Of a DNA stretch of 64,000 nt, positions 6,130-63,000 are shown one piece after another. The position numbers were made by a program, and so were the translations under genes. The stretch is from Halichondria panicea (taxonomy: Eukaryota > Porifera > Demospongiae > Suberitida > Halichondriidae), in NCBI RefSeq assembly GCF_963675165.1, contig NC_087377.1, forward strand, positions 16,183,518-16,247,517, written 5' to 3'. Under the pieces are notes generated by a model. It had not been told where the DNA came from, did not search any database, and saw nothing but the letters and a program-made list of their open reading frames with translations. The first letter of the stretch is position 1; every line of letters begins with the position of its first letter.

Positions 6130-8635
6130 TTATTCTCTTGAACTTGCATCATTTGGTTCAGTGGTTCCTCCATACGAGTTAGGTTGTAATTGATTAGTAT
6201 GTCCATATGATGGATTAGGTTGAGTGGCTTGTCGATACGATTCATTTGGCTGCACCATCTGCACTTCCTTGAGCTCAATCTCTATTTTCCTCACACACTT
6301 CTTGTGGTACACACAAGCAATGCAGATGACAACACTTATGACAGCTATTGCAGCAATCACTACAGCCACAACAGCCACAGTAACTCCCACTACTGCAATC
6401 CCATCAGTAGCTTGAACAAGTGTATCTCCTCTGGCCAGAATGAACACCTCCTCCACGGTGATCTGATCTGTTATATCCGTCTCTGATGACACAAACACTG
6501 TGTACACAGTATCTGGAGTTAGTCCTGTAATGTATGTGTGGGGGCGGGGGCGGGGGAATAATTATGTGCAAATGTCCCAAGTTAAGTGTTCAATGATCAA
6601 TAGCTGCTTACCCTCAATCAGTCCCATGGTGGTGGTGACAGTACTAGATAGTGTGATGTTTGTCTCCCCAGCTGCCCTGAACCAGAGGTTGTATCGTAGC
6701 TCATCCCTCCCCCTACCACCAGTGGACACTGGCTCCTCCCAGACTAGTGTTAGTGTGGTACTGGACATATCCACCACCCTCACGTTGAGTGGAGGGGACG
6801 GGGGAACTGCGTGGGTGTGTGTGGTTTGACATGAATTGACCTAATGAACTAAGGAAATGGTGTAGAACTGAAACAGCACAAGCATGCACTATGTGTGAAA
6901 CATGCAATAGCCCAACTTTTATATTAGAGGCAACGACAGTAAACAAATCACATACGATAGTCATTTATTCAACCCTGATACTTCTTTTGCAGTTTACCTA
7001 AGTATGTCCTCCAACTCACAGGTGCAGGGAAGGTCCACCTCTTGTGGTGTTCTGTAGTAGCCATCATCACAGGGACACTCTGCCAGGCCTGGGGCTGTTG
7101 TGCTGTTGCTGTTGCTAGGGCATGTTAGGCACTCTCCATTAGCCACACTGGCATAGAACCCAGGGTCACAAGCTGTGTGTGGGGAGGGGGGGGGAGATCA
7201 CATTCATTTAACAATTATGTATGGCAGCTATATATAGCTATAAATTCAGTATGCCATGTGATAGTCAGGCCATGCATCCCTTGCATAACATACACCCAAA
7301 CATGTATTGAGTGTAGCACTATAGCGCATTGTAAACTATTATTATTAAGCATATACAATGTGTCCCAAACTGAAACATGTAATCATACTTACACAAACAA
7401 GTTCCGTTCATGGTGGTAATAAACCCAGTGTCACACTCACACCTGCTGGAGGGTACAGCAACCCAGTTACCACTCTCCGAACACGTGAGTGAGAAAGCAT
7501 CACCTACTGGGCTAGAGTTAGAGAAGCAGGATGCATTAACGTTGAGCTGTATGCCAGACCCCACTGTTGGAGCTATTGTCTCAGGGCGCACCACCAAGTT
7601 GACTGTTTCACCAGGACAGACGTTATAGAAGACAATCAGTCGAGACATGAGTATACAAGTGCCACGATCTCTAATAGCGAGGTAGAACCCAGACTCATTG
7701 GTATTGAATCCAAACTGCTGTTCAGTGGTTGTTGTGGTAGTTCCAGAGACCTGAGTCAGCAAGGTTTTTATAAGTGCATAATTACCAGTGTCTATAGCAG
7801 CCACAGGATTCACTGTAGAGGTCTCATATTTCAGTAGGTCAAATGTTCTACTGCATCTTGTGCTGCCTTCATCAGGGCAAGCGTTCTGCTGGTATTCAAT
7901 CTGTACAGAGACTTGCTGTAGAGGATATCCATCCACTGTTCTGTTGATGTGCTGAGTGAAGAACCAGTTGTTCTGATCTCCACCTGACCAGCCACAAACA
8001 GTGACAGCAGACTCACAGTTAGTTCCTTGTTCTACCCACTGAAGAAAGAAAGAGATGAGATCAGTGCAATCTGTACTGCTCACGCTAATTACTAGCTAGA
8101 ATTACTTACAGATGATTGCAGCCCAACAGGGTTGTTATCATCAAGGTCCACTGCCTGCCACACTGAATTAGAGTTTGGTGGGAGCAACCTGCTATAGTGA
8201 CTGGAGTCCATTAGAATCCTTCCATTAGGCCACTCCAAGTGATACTCTGGTTTCTGGTCCACCGCCCGCATCAGATTTTATTCTTGGATTTCTATCTCAT
8301 TATTGGATTTCTATCCCATTATTTCTACTACGCATGCGCATAATGGTCCATGCGGTACAAAAATAGTGTGATAATGATATTCATTTGCAAAATAATGAGA
8401 TTCATAAGGTGAAAACTGATAATGACATAATGAGAAAAGCCGCCCGCCCGCATGCAATTAGAAAAACTTCAGGACCAGAAACCAGAGTGTCACTTGGAGT
8501 GGCCTTAGGAGGGTCCTCCACAATGTTCTGTCCAAGGGAAGGTAGAGATACTGTACACAGTTCACTCTCATCTCCTGGAGCCTGTCCAGCCACCATTGTC
8601 AGCACACCCAGCAGCAGGTTGGCTATAGCTAGCAT
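6130..8635 (-). CDS. Eph-receptor-like type I membrane protein lacking a kinase domain
   Basis: Minus-strand exons: about 8480-8635 (signal peptide, MLAIANLLLGVLTMVAGQ), 8110 to about 8262, 7393-8038, 7020-7172, 6612-6806 and 6130-6524. Junction phases of the last five are consistent. In order, the product has an ephrin-binding-type domain (WVEQGTNCESAVTVCGW, GDQNNWFFTQHI, CPDEGSTRCSRTF, GFYLAIRDRGTC, LIVFYNVCPGE), a Cys-rich module (CDPGFYASVANGECLTCP, CPCDDGYYRTPQE, PCT), one FN3 domain (FPPSPPLNVRVVDM, TLTLVWEEP, GLTPDTVYTVFV), a hydrophobic TM span (about VVGVTVAVVAVVIAAIAVIS) and a tail of about 60 residues. This is the Eph extracellular order, but the frame stops at 6130-6132 with no kinase. 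The exon-1/exon-2 junction is uncertain because a short inverted repeat lies there. It could be a decoy or adhesion receptor; ligand binding is inferred. Confidence 0.82.
8222..8515. repeat. Inverted duplication inside first intron of the Eph-like gene
   Basis: Positions 8222-8260 and 8471-8512 are inverted copies of one another (core GGACCAGAAACCAGAG and CACTTGGAGTGGCC), separated by about 210 bp containing CCCGCCCGCAT-like words. One arm is coding in exon 2, the other in the end of exon 1. This could fold into a hairpin in the pre-mRNA and it blurs the exon boundaries. Confidence 0.65.
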
Positions 8636-12093: not shown

Positions 12094-13367
12094 TTACCAA
12101 TCAAAGTCTGGCAGGGGTGGCAGAGGATCCAGTAATGGTGTGCTTGGCTCTTCTGCTGACTCAACACAATCCATAATCTCTGCAGCGAGATAAACACACA
12201 AGTCAATAATTATGTCATTGTAGGGTCATTGTGACAATAACAACACAACATGTGGACCACTATTATATCTAAGCTTATTTCTGTTGCTTTGCAGGTTATA
12301 AAGGTGTACATTTTTCGCAGTTTCTCTTATTAAGCATGTAGCGCGAACATTTATACCCACAAATTAAACACCGCATGTGCCAAACGATTACTTATAATAG
12401 CCCCACGAAAAATAAATCAGTGAAACTTTATACCCTCGAAATAATCATACCCTATACAGTTCCTGTTTCTCTATACCTTCCCATTGATTTTCCGTGGGTC
12501 TCTGTTGTAGGGTCAGCCTGGTGGTGAGAATGCCAGAGCGGATGTTAGCAAGACTTGTCGATGGTGCTGGTGTCACGGTGGTGTATTTGAGGGAGTCAGT
12601 GAGTGCCTTGAAATATGACGGCTCCACAAATGGAGAGAATATGTCTAAAGTGTGTGTGTGTGGTGTGTGTGTGTAGAGTGTGGGGGTGTGTGTGTGGTGC
12701 GTGCGTGCGTGTGTGTGTTTGTAAAGGGTGCACCTAATATTGATGTAAGTAGTACCTTACGTGCTCAGCTACGCAAACACACACACACAGAGGCCATAAT
12801 TATACCACTATACAGTGTAAAGTGATACGTATCTATGGCGATCTCACCATCGTCTAGTTTAGGGAGGCTCTCAATTTCAGGAAACTCGTCAATAACTGAT
12901 GGTGTTGTCACATGCATAGTGGAAGCTACGATCTTCTTATGGGTCTTCTTAGACGATCCAGGTTTGACGACAGATTTCAGCGGGACAGTACTCTGTGATC
13001 AAAAGGAACATGCCTGAATTAACAAGGTACACACATACGAAATGCCACGTAAAGTACAGAGGTCAAGTATCAGCAGGCATGTTGTAGTACAGTATAAAAT
13101 GTACCTTAGTCAGTTTTGTTGTATTTGTTTTTGAGGATTGCACGCTAATGGAGTTACTCAGTGATCTCAGAGCTTGTCTCGAGCCTGGAGTAGACTCTGT
13201 CATCTGCTTCTGAGCCAGTCTACCAGAGCCCCCTGGGCCTACAATCGATGGTGTGCATTAAATTAAAAATAACAAGCAATTTACCAACCTTGCTTAGTTC
13301 CAGACTTCATTTTGCTTTGCTGGTTTTCTTGAGATGCAAGGTAGCTTCTAGGCACAAGGGAAGTCAT
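12094..13367 (-). CDS. Securin-like (PTTG-type) anaphase inhibitor
   Basis: Five minus-strand exons: 13289-13367, 13105-13238, 12848-12992, 12477-12644 and 12094-12179. Their lengths sum to 612 nt, exactly 203 codons plus stop, with matched phases. The product is disordered, Ser/Thr/Pro/Lys-rich and has no ordinary domain. Two perfect RxxLxxxxN destruction boxes are visible, RSYLASQEN (residues 7-15) and RQALRSLSN (47-55), then a Lys-rich stretch, then an acidic FPEIE motif (108-112) followed by DDDIFSPFVEPSYF, and an acidic/Pro C-terminus ending LDPLPPLPDFDW. Vertebrate securin is 202 residues with RKALGTVN, YPEIE and a similar acidic/Pro end. PEIE is the pseudosubstrate motif that blocks separase. 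Function is inferred from motif order and length. It is divergent from the Sm-G gene with a shared promoter. Confidence 0.72.
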
Positions 13368-13602: not shown

Positions 13603-14186
13603 ATGAGTGGAAAGGCTTTCCCCCCGGAATTGAAAAAGTAAATCTATGCTCAGATTTGTTTGCGTGCCCAGCACTTTAATTAAAAACCCAATATTTTTCT
13701 ATATAAAGCTCATTATTCAGTTAACCCATTATTCTATTTGTCTCCTCTAGGTACATTGACAAGAGACTTCAATGTAAGCAATATTGTATCTAGCTACAGG
13801 CTACGTCTTGAAATAATTACGATAATTTTTGTAGTACCAAGGAAATTGTGTTGTTTGATTGTAACCTCTATTCTCTTGCTGCCCTTGTATACAGTGAAGC
13901 TGAATGGTGGACGCACAGTGACAGGTGTGCTGAGAGGGTTTGACCCCTACATGAACATCGTCATGGATGACACTGTAGAGGAGAAATCCAATAAACAGAA
14001 GTCAGAGATTGGAATGGTGGTAAGAGCGTGCTTGTAGTTAATGTGTACCGCATCTACCTATAGCTGTCACAGTTAGTATGTAAGAAGATCATTGGAATTG
14101 CTAATTAATAAAATTATTGATTTCCTTTGCAGGTTATTCGTGGAAACAGTATAGCGTTGATCGAAGCCCTGGAGAGAATAACGTGA
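13603..14186 (+). CDS. SNRPG: Small nuclear ribonucleoprotein Sm G
   Basis: Four exons: 13603-13637, 13751-13773, 13895-14019 and 14133-14186, totalling 237 nt or 78 residues plus stop. The product follows the Sm fold: an N-terminal PPELKKYIDKRL helix, Sm1 motif LKLNGGRTVTGVLRGFDPYM with NIVMDDTVEE, and Sm2 motif MVVIRGNSIALIEALERI. Sm-G is one of seven proteins forming the ring around U1, U2, U4 and U5 snRNAs in the spliceosome; the human protein is 76 residues. All splice junctions are GT-AG and in frame. Exon 2 is only 23 nt. A truncated duplicate of the third exon and following intron appears twice at 35-36.5 kb. Confidence 0.97.
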
Positions 14187-15409: not shown

Positions 15410-16173
15410 ATGTTTACAATTCTACTGAGAGTTTTTGCTATTTTCCTGTGTGTACAGGTAGTCAAGTCTCAAGGTTAGCTATACGTACGAACACGTGACA
15501 GTACGCATGCATGTATATATACATGTAGCCAGCTGTGTATTATGTTATGGCTGTTAAGTTAAATGCAGAAATGCATGAGGTACGTATAATATAGCTGCAT
15601 TTGTAGTTCGCAATAAATTATTTTGAATTTTGTATCGAAAAAGTTATTTTGATGATTTATGTGTATAATATACGTATATATATAGCTCAACAACGTCTGC
15701 ACTGCAAAGTAACTGTGGTATATAATTATATGAACTGCTGCAAATGAAAAGTGAATGTGCTCTTTACGCCTATATATATTAGCGCTTCAACTTTGTGTTT
15801 GAGAAGTTACTGATTGATGTATCTATAATTATTTCTCAGCTGCAACTTTTAGATGTGTATACTGCTTAACCTTACAATAATTATGAGATCTCTCCTTATT
15901 TCTTTGCAGTGCTGAGTATCAGCACTCAACCGTCAAGCCGAACAGTCGACGATGGTGATACTGTAATGTTCTCTGTAGTAGCTGCAGGTGCAACAGCTTA
16001 TGAATGGCATTTGGATAGTACTTCCCTTCCCAATGGTGGGGACATCACTGGAGCCACTACTGATACGTTGACAATTGCGAATGCGGAACAAGCAGATGCA
16101 GGCGATTACTTTGTCAGGGTATTTGACAGTGATGGATTTCTTGACTCTAATACTGTCACACTAACTGTTTTGT
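15410..16173 (+). CDS. Gene A exons 1-2: signal peptide and Ig domain
   Basis: Exon 15410-15473 encodes MFTILLRVFAIFLCVQVVKS, a clear signal peptide. Exon 15910-16173 encodes one Ig-like domain with the central Trp (YEWHLDS) and the DAGDYFVRV motif of strand F. Both canonical Cys positions carry other residues (MFSV and YFVRV), so the domain lacks the usual disulphide. The same exon pair, equally Cys-less, starts gene B. The 1.5 kb intron that follows occupies the place where gene B has its CCP exons. Confidence 0.85.
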
Positions 16174-17722
16174 GTAAGTTTAAATCATGTCTGTGCCTGT
16201 GTAGCTTCTGCATGTTGCAATTGTGTGTTGTACCAATCTCATTGTGGCAAACAGATTCTTAGTTGAGGACAATTAGGTGAAGGTTAGCTATAATTAATTG
16301 TAATTATCCTGTGTACCGGAACCCCACTATAATCATAACTAACACAGCATCACTGTATTCTATTTATGTGTTTCACTGCTAACCACATGCACAGAACAAG
16401 CTATAGGGGATACAGTTATTACGTACTGTAACAGTTACTTTGAAGGGCCTGTAATTTACTATTGTGGTTTTACAACAAAATAGCTTTCTTGTTACTTGAA
16501 GCCTGCCAAACTTTCCAAATTAATGCCCGTAGTAACGAAATGAGGACCAACAATTTCAGACAGCCAACAAATTGATTGGAGTATAATTAATCAGGCAAAT
16601 TTACTAGACAGCCAGTGACATCTCCCCTTAACACTGTACATGCTTACCAACAGTTAGACTAGCTGCACTAGAAGTGACAATATGGTCAGTTTACATTCCA
16701 GAATCACTGACATCAACAAGTGATAATTATCAGTGTGTGATCGATCCCTTGGAAATCATCATCAGACGTTTCAAATCCAAACCGTTAGAGAAAGTATATA
16801 AACCATTGAAACATTGTTGCAAAACCTCCTTTCTAAACCGATTTCCCCCCATTTTAACAAGTATTAGAGAATAATCATGCAGAGGCTAAGTGTTACATTA
16901 AACAGTTCATCACCCTTCTCCTGAGCACGCAACAGAGGAGGTACGACATGAGTATACCTCGATTAGGCTTAATTGGGATAGGTCAAGTGTTTAACGTTGC
17001 ATGCGACTAAATAACTCAATTTTATACTCGTGTCAGACCATCTCTGAGCGCGCAGAAGCACCGAAATGTTTTGGGAGCCACACCCCCTTTAGACTTCCCC
17101 GCCCACTAATTAAACATGTTCTACTTCAGTTCTACTTCAATATAAACAAAATGTCTTTTTTACTGAAGCACGGTGAACAGTAGACTGGTAAAACTCTGTG
17201 TAGAATATTGTGTTGCCTAGTCAGCATATCAGAAATTAAATGGCTGTGGTTTTCGTAACGTCAGTCTACTACGTACTACTACCGGAGGACTGGCGCGGTG
17301 CAGCTCTAGCAATTAGTCCAATAATTATCCGCCCACATCGTGTGTTAATTATTGCTGAGTTAATGAGAAGCTAATTGCATGAGCTGCACCGCGCCTGTCG
17401 GACCTTAGCCTTGAATCCAAATTTGAGGCTAGTCGTCAATAATCCATGCATGGTAACCGCATGCAGTCTAGCCATTTGAGTTGCCACAAATAACGTGGGG
17501 CAAACGTAAGACGAGTCTCTACACAGAGTTTACCCAGTCTCTTTTTCACGTGCAAACGTTGCTATGTCTAAAGAACACATGGTAAAACCATTCATCTTGC
17601 GAGACGGTGCATGGTGGCTGGTACGTGGTTCTTTTGAATTAATTTAGGGGTTCCATTGACTTTAATATTCACAAGTAAGACAGCATTTTTGTATCGTACT
17701 GATTGAATTTTCCCTATTGCAG
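16174..17722 (+). other. Gene A intron between Ig and Calx-beta exons
   Basis: No CCP-like exon remains here. Near 17286-17398 an inverted pair, GCGCGGTGCAGCTC and GAGCTGCACCGCGC, suggests a small hairpin element. Otherwise it is AT-rich intron. Confidence 0.55.
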
Positions 17723-57000: not shown

Positions 57001-60000
57001 AACAACAAGATTGTGTGTTAATTGGAGTAATTAGAAGCCCAATTACATACCACACTAAAGTTGTACCAATTAAAATTATGCATGTTCCTTAAATTTAGCC
57101 GCAAATAATTTTCACAATTGGTAACCTTTTCCTAATACTGATGCATGTGAATATAATATTGTCTTTATTATTTGCTTCTCTCCCTACCCAGCGATCAATG
57201 GAATGGACTATTCTCCTCCGGGGGACTTTCAGATTGAGTTTGGCGCTAGTTCATTGTCCGGGGACTCAGAGTGTGTGAATATGACTATCAGCAATGACGA
57301 CTTTGTAGAGGGCAGAGAAGAGTTTGTTGTCACAGTAACCAGTGTGTCACCGCAGGTGGAGCAGTCTGAAATCAATTCAGTTACTGTAACCATCGTTGAT
57401 AATGACTGTAAGATTCCTGAAGTAATGATTGTGTCAACTGGCCGAAACTATAATTACACATGTAGATCTACTTGACCAATTTTGTTTCATTTTGGGATTT
57501 TCTAGAAGCTTGTATACTTCTTGCCATACAAATATCTCCCCTCCACATATATACACACAGCTGCAACGGCCTCCTTCTCTCCCGGCAGTGTATCAGTGAC
57601 TGAGTCTGACTTTGTCAACAGCAGTGTGTGTATGGTACTGACTTCTCTTCCAGCTGGAGGTGCACTAGAGTGTGACATTGACATCACCTTGACTCCCTTT
57701 CAAGACACGGCAGGTCAGAAAAAATAGACTACAGCTAATTATATAGGGTTGTATAATTGCTGACATTTTGCAGTAGAACCGTACCTTGAGTAAAATAGCA
57801 TTTAATTTCAAGTTGGAGAACGCTGCCTTAATAGACTAGTCTGTTGTTCCACACAAACACATGCAGTATTGAACGAGGACTTTGAATATTTCGAGACTGT
57901 ATTGATGATTCCTGCTGGGACTGCCCTAAACCAGCCTGTATGTGTCTATGGACTCCAGTTTGGAATAGTGGACGATCAGATTGTGGAGAACTCTCAACAT
58001 TTCAGTGTTGTGCCGTCGAGTGTGTTCCCTACCAACACGTTGACTGTTTCTGATTCCTTCACTGTTACCATTCAGGACAATGACTGTGAGTGGAGTTCAT
58101 TACCAAGAAACTTCAAACCTTCTCACTCTAATAATAGCATGTTCTTTGCCTTAATTCACTCCATTAGTGCCGATTATTTCGTCTTTCTATTATTTACTGA
58201 CATATAGCTATCAATAGAAAATGTCTGCCATTATAATATTATGTTGCACTATAGATGTTGGGGTGGGTTTTGAAAAATCAGAGTACAGTCTGGACGAGGG
58301 GACCTCACAGTCGGTGTGTGTTACCTTCTCTAGACAACTGCAACGGCCGATCTCATTGAGCAGTGACTTTAAGGACCTCAGAGGGTTGCTCAGAGGTGAG
58401 ACAGAAGTGTACTTTACAACACCCCCCAAAAAGTGTCTATATATTATATTTAGATCCCACTTGAGTGTTTTTGCTTATTGTTGCTATGTGCTCTATTTCT
58501 GGCAACGTGCTCTATTAAATGCTTCAGGCTACGTACTTTGTATTGTCATTTACAAGGAGATGCACATGTAATAACAGTGCCAATTATAACTGTTTCATGA
58601 CAGGGTTTTCTAGTCAAAGAATAGATTATAATATATGCATGTGTTTAGTTTTGTAAGCAGCTTAATAACTCATGCATGGTTGTGTATATCATTCCCTTCA
58701 CTCTTCCCCCCCCCCTATAGGTGAACTGAGGTTAGGAGTTCCTGGTCCGTCCTATCTGATTGGGGTCGGTGCGAATGCCTCAAACACAGTGGAGCCAGGG
58801 AGTGTGTGTATGTCTGTAGACAACGTCGATGACTCAGTGAAGGAAGGCAACAGACTCTCTCTGCTTAGACTGAACAGCTCTGAGACGGCCGTGATGATTG
58901 GAGAGCGGCAAGCACTGTTCATTGAGACTGCTAATGATGGTTAGTCGATGATGATTATTTCCTAAATTGCATTGTGTCTGCTTTATCTTTGCGTATTGTC
59001 ATAATTCATTTTGTTACGTCTTTATGATAGGTTTTTCAACAATTCGAGATTTCCAATTTTTAGCCTAAAAATGCAGCTATAGATCTACTGTAAAGTCATT
59101 ATGTCTGTAGGCACTACTATAGTGATAGTATGTTATCGTGAGGTATGTTTTCTCTCCCATGCAGTTATTGTGGCCTCTCTGACGTCTCTCAGTGGAATGG
59201 TGGATGAAAATAATGGAGCAGTGGAGATGTGTGTACAGCTGAACCACAGGCCCATAGACACCATCGTCACGGCAATACTCACAACACAACCTCTCACGGC
59301 AACAGGTATAAGAAATAGTCATGGAGCACCTCCACAAGTGACAAACTTAACAGCCCGAATACTTTTGCAATCAATCAAAATTATTCTCTGCAGAAGGAGA
59401 AGACTTTGTGTCACTGAATATCACCCTGGTGTGGCACTACGACTCTCCCAGCCTCACTCAGTGTGTGAGTGTGGCCATCATCAATGACGAGTGTGTGGAG
59501 GAGAAAGAAGAAGTGTTCACCGTCTCTCTGTCCACAGAGGAGGAGTGTGTTGACGTCGGACCAGACAACCAAACTACTGTCACTATACTGGACAATGATC
59601 GTGAGTCTAGACCACAATTGCTGCATGTGTCCCATAAATGTGCTGCATGGTACTGCACACATCATTTTTGTCTCAGGGCTGCTTGTGGATTTCAGAGATC
59701 CATTTGTGGAAGTGGAGGAATCTGCTGGGAATGTCACCTTGTGTGTGTACATCTGTGATGGAGGGCTTAAAAGAAATGCAAGCATCACATTAGCTACAGA
59801 GGATGCTATGGCAACTTGTGAGTTACAGTGTATTCACTATAAATGTATGCTGCACAATTATGTGCTTTTTATAATTATTTCATGTTATTGGTAGTGTATA
59901 TTTGTACCAAGTTAGTCTATACATAATTATACATACAGGGTGAAAACAGCCTTTGTATAATTATATAGAATCTAGTCGCTATATAATAATTGTTTAAAGG

Positions 60001-63000
60001 TCACTAGACAGAAGTATATTATTGAGAGTGATTTAGTGTCAGCAAACTTCACCTCTAACCCCCCCCCCACCACCCACCCACCATCCCACCACCCCACCCC
60101 TACAGCTGTAGCTCCTGAAGACTTTAGTAGCTCTTCCTACGAACTAACCTTCACGCCTGATAACGCTCATCAAGACTTGTGTGTGATCATCAATATCGCC
60201 GATGACGCCATCTACGAACAGACGGAGCAGTTTATGGTTTATCTGACCACCAATGACTCGTGTGTAGAGTTCAAGCAAGAGTCGACACCAATCTCAATAC
60301 TAGATGATGACTGTGAGTTGTGTAGTGCTGCGTGTGTGTGCAGCAGTTATAATGGGTTTCGAATTGATATAGTTATTCATTTGTGAATGACACTGTATAT
60401 ATACACAAGCCTCTGATTGCGCATGCATGTGCACGCTCATTCTCTACGTGCCTTTCGTTTATATATAATTATAGTAAATAGATTTAGTACAGTTGTGTCT
60501 CCCTACACTGTAAAAGACTCCGGTAGTATATATTTATACATGTATCATGCTGCTCTACCCTTAAATAGTATTAAATTGACGTGCTTCTTCTACTTCTTCT
60601 CTATCCTCAGGTTTGACTCTTGATTTGCAACCTGAATCGGAAATGGTAGCAGAATCACTGGGAGTGGTTGAGGTGTGTGTTTCTCTGTCTGGAGATCTGG
60701 AGACCAGTGTCAATGCCATGGTCTTGACCGTGCCTGGAGATGCAAAGTGTGAGGATGCCCTATATAGGTTGTAGCTGTTAAACACATCTACTGTATAACT
60801 ATTATGTTGTTGTAGGTATAACTTCTGTGTACTAGCTATGTGTAGTAAATCTGTACAATAAGTTCCTGAGCCAAAATAGTATCATACAGGAGTCTGAAAA
60901 GGCATGTACCTTAATTGTATTATGTGCAGATGATGATGACTTCTCATTTGAAACTGGTATGGGTTCTATCACTCTCACCTTTACTGAGGCTGGGGAGCAG
61001 TGTGTCAACGTCTCCATAGCAATGGACAACTTGCTAGAGACCTCCGAACATTTCTCTGTAGTGATGGGCTCTCGAGATGACAGAGTGAAATTGAACAACC
61101 GCATCTCACGCATCTACATCGTTGATAGTGGAAGTGAGTTCATGCAACATACCCACAAGTATATACTGTTACAGTAATATAATAGTATCACTTACGTAGC
61201 TACCTCCAATCAACTTTGTACTCAACGTTGTATATAGTTAAAAATTCTTGAGCAGTTTTTGCTCCAAATATTAATATTTATCCCCTCCACTCCACCCATG
61301 TTACCAGTGGTGAGGTTTGGGTTCTCTCAGAGTGTGTACCCAGTGCCTGAGGAGGACGCCAGTGGAGAGGGTTACATCTTGGAGGTGTGTGTGGAGCTCT
61401 TCTCTGGAGAACTGGACAGAGAGTTTGTCATCAGAGTGGAGGGTCAGGATGGATCAGCTGTCGGTAAATATGCTGCTATATACATGGTATACTATTTATG
61501 TTTTTTCGAAAAACATTGTATGGTACAATCCAAAGTATATCATGCATATTGAATGACAATCTCTATATCCATCAAGTCTATACAATATATAATAACCATG
61601 GTACTGATTATTATATACTAAACAGGAGGAGAGGACTATGTTCAATTGATGGAAGTCTTTTCAGGGATGGAGTTTGTTTTCAAACCGTTGCCACCAGCAC
61701 CACAGCTTCCAATAGGCAGAAGAAAGAGAGAGGTATCACTATCAGAGCTATGTGTGAATGTGAGCATTCTGGCCGATGATGTGGTGGAGACTGACGAGTA
61801 CTTTAGTCTGGTAATGAGCAGTGTAGACCCTGGAGTTACTCTCATGCCAGCCAATGCTACTGTGGTCATCTCAGACAATGACTGTGAGTTCACCTTAATT
61901 TATTATTGTGTTCACGGTAGATATTCCAGCTAACTATACTTACGTTTCAGATTGACATAATACCTTGTAGACAGCAAAACATATCTTTTATAACCACAAG
62001 TGTTTGCCTATAGTTAAACAGATTAAATTCACCACTGATCTGCTTCATCTTCCCTGATATCAACAACAGCATAGCGAGTTCCAATGACAGACACACGAGC
62101 CGTGTCATTCAAGTGGACAGTGAAGTTTTCAAACATCTCTTCCACTGCTCAGTAGGAAAACAATGGCGAACTCACCTCTGCATGCACCTATTATATTAGT
62201 TTATATTACTTATTAAAGTAGCTTCCACCCTAGCAAATCTGACTTCGAGGGAAAATGATTAGTTAGGGACATATACCCAAGACAACAGAGAACAGTACGC
62301 TATCACTAGTTGGTTGTGTAGAGCTACAGTTCTCTAGATTATCTCACTGAAGAACGTGAGGAGAAGAATGAGAAAAAGTTGTTGTTTTTTTGTTTTGCTG
62401 TTCTCATAACTTTTTCATACAATGTTCAATTCAGTTCATATTTCACACAAATGTCACAAATGATATGGGCAACAGATATATGAACTCAAAATAAGTCTTT
62501 CTTGTGTCTTGGGTGAGATCCAGAGGGGGGATTTTTGCTGTTTTCGACCCAACCCCTAATTAAATCATTGAATTTTGGATTTGCATTACTACCTTGACCA
62601 CGTAGCGTAGGGGCTAGCCAAATCCGATTAATTATAATGCCTATGTGACCACAAGCTCACAAATTTATTCATTGAGACAACAAATTCCACAATAACGATA
62701 TCTTCATCCCGTGCGCAGTGGTCATGGTTACGTTTGGCCAGGCTGAGGTATTACTGAATGAGGGTGACAATGGAAGTATGTGTGTCAACATCACTGGTCA
62801 ACTGGAACGTCCGGTAGTTATCAGTGTGTCCATCTCTGGAGGCTCTGCAGACACTGGTTCAGATCATAATTTCCCTGCTTCTACTTCGTTCAACTTCAGC
62901 TCCTCCCCTGACACTTACTGCATCTCCTTCAACGCCACTCAAGACGCCACTTATGAAAGTGATGAGACCTTCTCTGTTCGTCTTGACTCCTCTGACCCTC

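Follow-up and report, generated by a model that had tools for sequence, protein, structure and literature searches.

Until the cell divides, the chromosome-cutting enzyme separase is restrained by securin. As a protein, securin is of an ordinary kind, but it changes so fast that in early-branching animals it usually escapes notice. The window analysed here (the whole stretch of 64,000 nucleotides) raises the question of whether a small gene at 12094-13367, on the minus strand, could encode the securin of this sponge. An initial annotation had read it in this way, as the separase inhibitor of the animal. The question can be divided: whether the gene is real, whether its product looks like a securin, whether something better is present elsewhere in the genome and whether the pseudosubstrate suits the separase and the Rad21 of the same animal.

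The gene and its neighbor

Five exons, summing to 612 nt (79+134+145+168+86), yield 203 codons and a stop, as the initial annotation had counted them; the four introns are all GT-AG and the frame is open from end to end. Exon 1 (13289-13367, with the ATG at 13367) supplies residues 1-26 and one further nucleotide, and exon 2 (13105-13238) residues 27-71. Exon 3 (12848-12992) encodes residues 72-119, with one nucleotide over, and carries the basic stretch and the predicted pseudosubstrate. Exon 4 (12477-12644) closes with WE (174-175) and one base more, the first of codon 176; exon 5 (12094-12179) holds residues 176-203 and the stop, an acidic and proline-containing tail that finishes in LPPLPDFDW.

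Codon usage was scored with a training set of 1526 codons taken from the Rad21 and separase genes of the same genome, the separase stretches being picked by eye. The joined frame reaches +50 bits; a generated non-coding null lies at -65 ± 14, and none of its 3000 sets attains the score of the frame. Exon by exon the model frame is top in only two of the five (12848-12992 and 12094-12179); in the remaining three it lies at most 0.05 bits per codon below the best frame, and a few alternative frames are likewise free of stops. The acceptor region of intron 3 is CA-rich. Upstream of the ATG an in-frame TGA stands at a distance of six codons, and TTTCCCAG, directly 5′ of the ATG, may act as a splice acceptor, so that an upstream exon is possible. 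In the genome searched (131.5 Mb, 39 contigs), the candidate is single-copy: its own five exons match, and the next matches have E values of 3.7 and 8.45.

A separate gene, for the Sm protein G (SNRPG), lies at 13603-14186 on the plus strand and is transcribed divergently (LSM match 3.3e-24; exons joined by eye). The two start codons are ∼236 bp apart; a shared promoter is possible.

Motifs of the predicted protein

Two sequences of the form RxxLxxxxN occupy the N-terminal part, where they make up a putative APC/C degron: RSYLASQEN at residues 7-15 (13323-13349, minus strand) and RQALRSLSN at residues 47-55 (13153-13179, minus strand). The predicted pseudosubstrate, FPEIESLP, spans residues 108-115 (12861-12884, minus strand); P6 to P1 are EIESLP in the human register, as set out in PMC6858450. 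Residues 71-100 contain seven K/R and no D/E, residues 101-135 contain eight D/E, and the tail (171-203) contains ten D/E and six P. The residue counts agree with the initial annotation, which had listed both boxes, FPEIE (108-112) in an acidic setting, a basic middle and an acidic, proline-containing C-terminus. There is no KEN box in the candidate (QEN is found instead, at 13-15), and neither the LPE docking motif nor NxLxPhiE is present in the protein.

Among 200,000 shuffles of the protein, at least two RxxLxxxxN were found at a frequency of 9e-5, PEIE at 0.00245, and both together at 5e-6 (that is, in one shuffle); these figures are post hoc, the initial annotation having already named the motifs.

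Comparison with known securins

Profile methods were silent: the Pfam Securin profile (PF04856), which gives 1.6e-59 for human securin as control, has no match to the candidate at E<=10. A phmmer search of the PDB with the candidate returned no securin among its matches.

Pairwise alignment with human securin (PTTG1, PDB 7nj1_B) gives more. The local score is 65 (shuffles 38 ± 6), and of 2000 full shuffles two score as high; window shuffles reach it more often (26/2000 with 40-aa windows, 133/2000 with 20-aa windows), so the signal is in part composition along the chain. At other gap costs, 11/2000 full shuffles (8/1) or 0/2000 (6/0.5) reach the local score. The global score, 106.5, is reached by none of 2000 full shuffles, by one of 2000 with 40-aa windows and by 21 of 2000 with 20-aa windows. 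Aligned on their own, neither the pseudosubstrate part (0.058) nor the C-terminus (0.37) exceeds shuffles.

The layout is, on the sequences compared, better evidence than the alignment score for a relation to human securin. The two proteins are 203 and 202 aa long, and landmarks follow in the same order (candidate/human): TP at 43/43, S[AS]KK at 84/89, PEIE at 109/112, WE at 174/174 and LPP at 195/193. With FPEIE held fixed, 100,000 shuffles never placed the box, S[AS]KK, WE and LPP in position together, for features that were picked after alignment. Both have a destruction box, then a basic stretch with S[AS]KK, then an aromatic residue and PEIE in an acidic setting; charge is similarly distributed in the basic middle, in the acidic part (103-136) and at the C-terminus. 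They differ at residues 137-170, where human securin has five acidic residues and the candidate none; the candidate is also without the KEN, LPE and NxLxPhiE of the human protein, and has Pro rather than Phe at P1. The human box, RKALGTVN, does not itself fit RxxLxxxxN.

The securins of yeast and worm provide a yardstick. In local alignment with human securin, the score of the yeast piece is reached by 462 of 2000 shuffles and that of the worm piece by 1587 of 2000: accepted securins of distant phyla align no better, and a weak score is therefore normal for securins. According to PMC6858450, conservation of the LPE docking motif extends across vertebrates and to some lower eukaryotes, but it does not define the class, because the yeast and worm pieces are also without it. 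Budding yeast Pds1 (PDB 5u1s_B) resembles the candidate at four positions of the pseudosubstrate (DIEIAP against EIESLP): P6 is acidic, P5 is Ile, P4 is Glu and P1 is Pro. Its piece has neither LPE nor NxLxPhiE; it differs in a downstream VPE (PMC6858450). Caenorhabditis elegans IFY-1 (PDB 5mz6_B) has the DIE core (DIEDDM) in a piece equally free of LPE and NxLxPhiE, but its P1 is Met and PEIE is absent. The candidate aligns with each within the range of shuffles: 531/2000 reach the score for the Pds1 piece and 298/2000 that for IFY-1 (a 104-aa piece only).

Other candidates in the genome

The initial annotation would have yielded to a better securin elsewhere in the genome. Neither the Pfam Securin profile nor human securin (E<=10) found anything in the whole genome, blanks that prove no absence because the exons are short. 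A search for [FY]PEIE, which reaches only securins carrying that motif, found 61 sites (19 in the reversed control); among the 55 inspected none was a better securin than the candidate. At least one RxxLxxxxN lies within 1.5 kb upstream of 20 of the 55, two boxes in that interval are found for the candidate alone, and only two sites, the candidate and L047, have two acidic residues among the five that precede the motif. The six remaining sites have the same 15 letters, and lie in the same part of contig C7, as 15 inspected copies of a NACHT family.

Three other sites were considered and set aside. L055 surpasses the candidate exon when aligned with human residues 85-160 (50 against 42), but it has no acidic context, no upstream box and a frame of 54 aa. 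L047 has the two acidic residues and one upstream box; its motif follows the splice donor of an exon that by eye resembles one of myosin. L058 seems to resemble a prolyl aminopeptidase, an assignment for which Pfam gave no support. One scan each of bacterial and archaeal genome contigs and of viral contigs showed no relative of the candidate.

Between 1.84 and 3.07 Mb of C7 there are 21 places with identical FPEIE-coding letters (L024-L038 and six more); a GAPGSGKS context is present in all 15 inspected, and L024 matches NACHT. By sequence these are probably a large NLR-type family of this sponge.

Separase and Rad21 of the same animal

Human separase cuts its substrates after the Arg of (S/D/E)xExxR, and securin has a residue other than Arg there (PMC10317155 and PMC12609080). 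Other securins are reported to become substrates once P1 is changed to Arg (PMC10317155; in human securin with two changes, PMC6858450). The human pseudosubstrate is EIEKFFP with Phe118 as P1 (PMC6858450), and the P1 of securin is described as a large hydrophobic residue in PMC10317155. With the yeast and worm registers set by applying the human one, the candidate's EIESLP (110-115) can be put beside EIEKFF, DIEIAP and DIEDDM: it has the acidic P6 and Glu P4, and no Arg at P1. Its P1 is Pro, unlike the large hydrophobic residue of that description; a one-residue gap would turn it into Leu.

A separase gene is present on contig C11 of the same genome. Over the protease part it gives a match to human separase at 3e-39, and the active site is conserved (GH, GCSSA and DIDR are all kept). 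Rad21 has one match in the genome, on contig C2 (7168501-7178500); the model, of 597 aa, has Pfam Rad21_Rec8_N at 8.6e-39 and a conserved C-terminal domain at 540-593. It contains (S/D/E)xExxR three times: DIEVAR at 176, DIEQPR at 427 and EFEARR at 517. The likely cleavage sites are DIEVAR and DIEQPR, both beginning with DIE. EFEARR lies directly before the conserved C-terminal domain, and its presumed human counterpart is no cleavage site. The candidate's EIESLP copies the likely Rad21 sites of its own genome but lacks the Arg.

NxLxPhiE is absent from this Rad21, and LPE occurs only at 110 and 403, with none in the 100 residues after the first site. As the candidate is without both motifs and Rad21 without NxLxPhiE, docking outside the active site may differ in this sponge; the pattern is suggestive.

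Weighing the alternatives

The layout shared with human securin, the separase of the same genome, the likeness of EIESLP to Rad21 sites and the single copy all support the initial reading, and the gene is taken to be the securin of this demosponge with a probability of about 0.86. One competing account has the product as some other disordered cell-cycle protein, degraded by APC/C via its destruction boxes, which carries PEIE by chance and makes no contact with separase. The motifs are indeed short, the Pfam profile is blank, [FY]PEIE is not rare in this genome (a third of the sites, 21 of 61, belong to one repeated family), and KEN, LPE and NxLxPhiE are all lacking; but LPE and NxLxPhiE are equally lacking from the yeast and worm pieces, five landmarks track human securin in order and spacing, and EIESLP mirrors the Rad21 sites of the same genome. 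Chance PEIE is accordingly judged unlikely.

The gene model might instead be wrong in part, through a missing or upstream exon or alternative splicing, whether or not the gene encodes securin. It was built from DNA sequence, TTTCCCAG immediately ahead of the ATG may act as an acceptor, intron 3 has a CA-rich acceptor region and the model frame scores best in only two exons of five; set against this are the GT-AG introns, the frame kept through five exons, the joined codon score far above its null and a total length one residue from that of human securin, so that such an error, too, seems improbable. That the locus is non-functional, a decayed copy or a set of chance open frames, is very improbable indeed: the exons are short and their individual codon scores modest, but no internal stop interrupts the sole copy found in the genome, two boxes and PEIE come together in 5e-6 of shuffles, and no null set among 3000 reaches the joined codon score.

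If the gene is a securin, its protein would be disordered and would take an extended form on separase. FPEIESLP would occupy the active site and mimic a Rad21 site there without being cleaved, with Glu, Ile and Glu at P6, P5 and P4 and no Arg at P1; the acidic, proline-containing C-terminal half would run along the N-terminal domain of separase; and the destruction boxes in the N-terminal half would allow removal by APC/C-Cdc20 at anaphase. That the protein works like a pseudosubstrate inhibitor with APC/C degrons has firmer support than its shared ancestry with vertebrate securin, itself probable.

Evolution of the pseudosubstrate

A survey of 65 taxa found securin in under half of the animals sampled and regarded the securins of animals as not homologous to those of fungi; sponges go unmentioned in its main text (PMC3195147). 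In the open-licence PMC literature searched, no title on a sponge securin appeared among the matches listed. A securin from a sponge would be an early-branch animal sequence and so a seed for sensitive profiles, and would make it possible to examine whether the pseudosubstrate is an inheritance or arose anew. Annotated assemblies are available for other sponges (for example PMC12616128 and PMC12586988).

The initial annotation had held that the gene would show the PEIE pseudosubstrate to be ancient in animals. This is new only in part: the [DE]IE core is older, being found as DIE in yeast and worm, and what sponge and human additionally share is the aromatic residue and Pro in front of it. The candidate joins this human-type aromatic-Pro before EIE with a yeast-type Pro at P1. 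One scenario, which these sequences make conceivable though still rather doubtful, is that the pseudosubstrate came from the opisthokont ancestor, that animal and fungal securins are homologous in this segment, and that the gain or replacement of docking motifs such as LPE and NxLxPhiE came afterwards, in step with Rad21. If true, such inheritance would contradict the non-homology view taken in PMC3195147.

Further features of the window and genome

Elsewhere in the window, 7319-8095 (minus strand) matches the ephrin receptor ligand-binding domain (Pfam 2.1e-16) and, less strongly, an ephrin cysteine-rich one. An Immunoglobulin I-set domain exon (Pfam 1.1e-7) lies at 15870-16262 (plus strand) and a Calx-beta domain exon (Pfam 7.2e-12) at 59976-60386 (plus strand).

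The pattern CG-any-Ser-Tyr-[AS]-Phe occurs at nine places in the genome (12 in the reversed control). Six of the nine read CGASYAF or CGSSYAF inside Peptidase_C1 matches, with Ser replacing the catalytic Cys, a substitution that we take to be the hallmark of silicatein. These silicatein-type matches lie at 656-668 kb on C2, 200-205 kb on C6 and 25 kb on C13; five of the six contain stops, perhaps as read-through introns or pseudogenes. Proteases of this type make a demosponge the likely source of the DNA.
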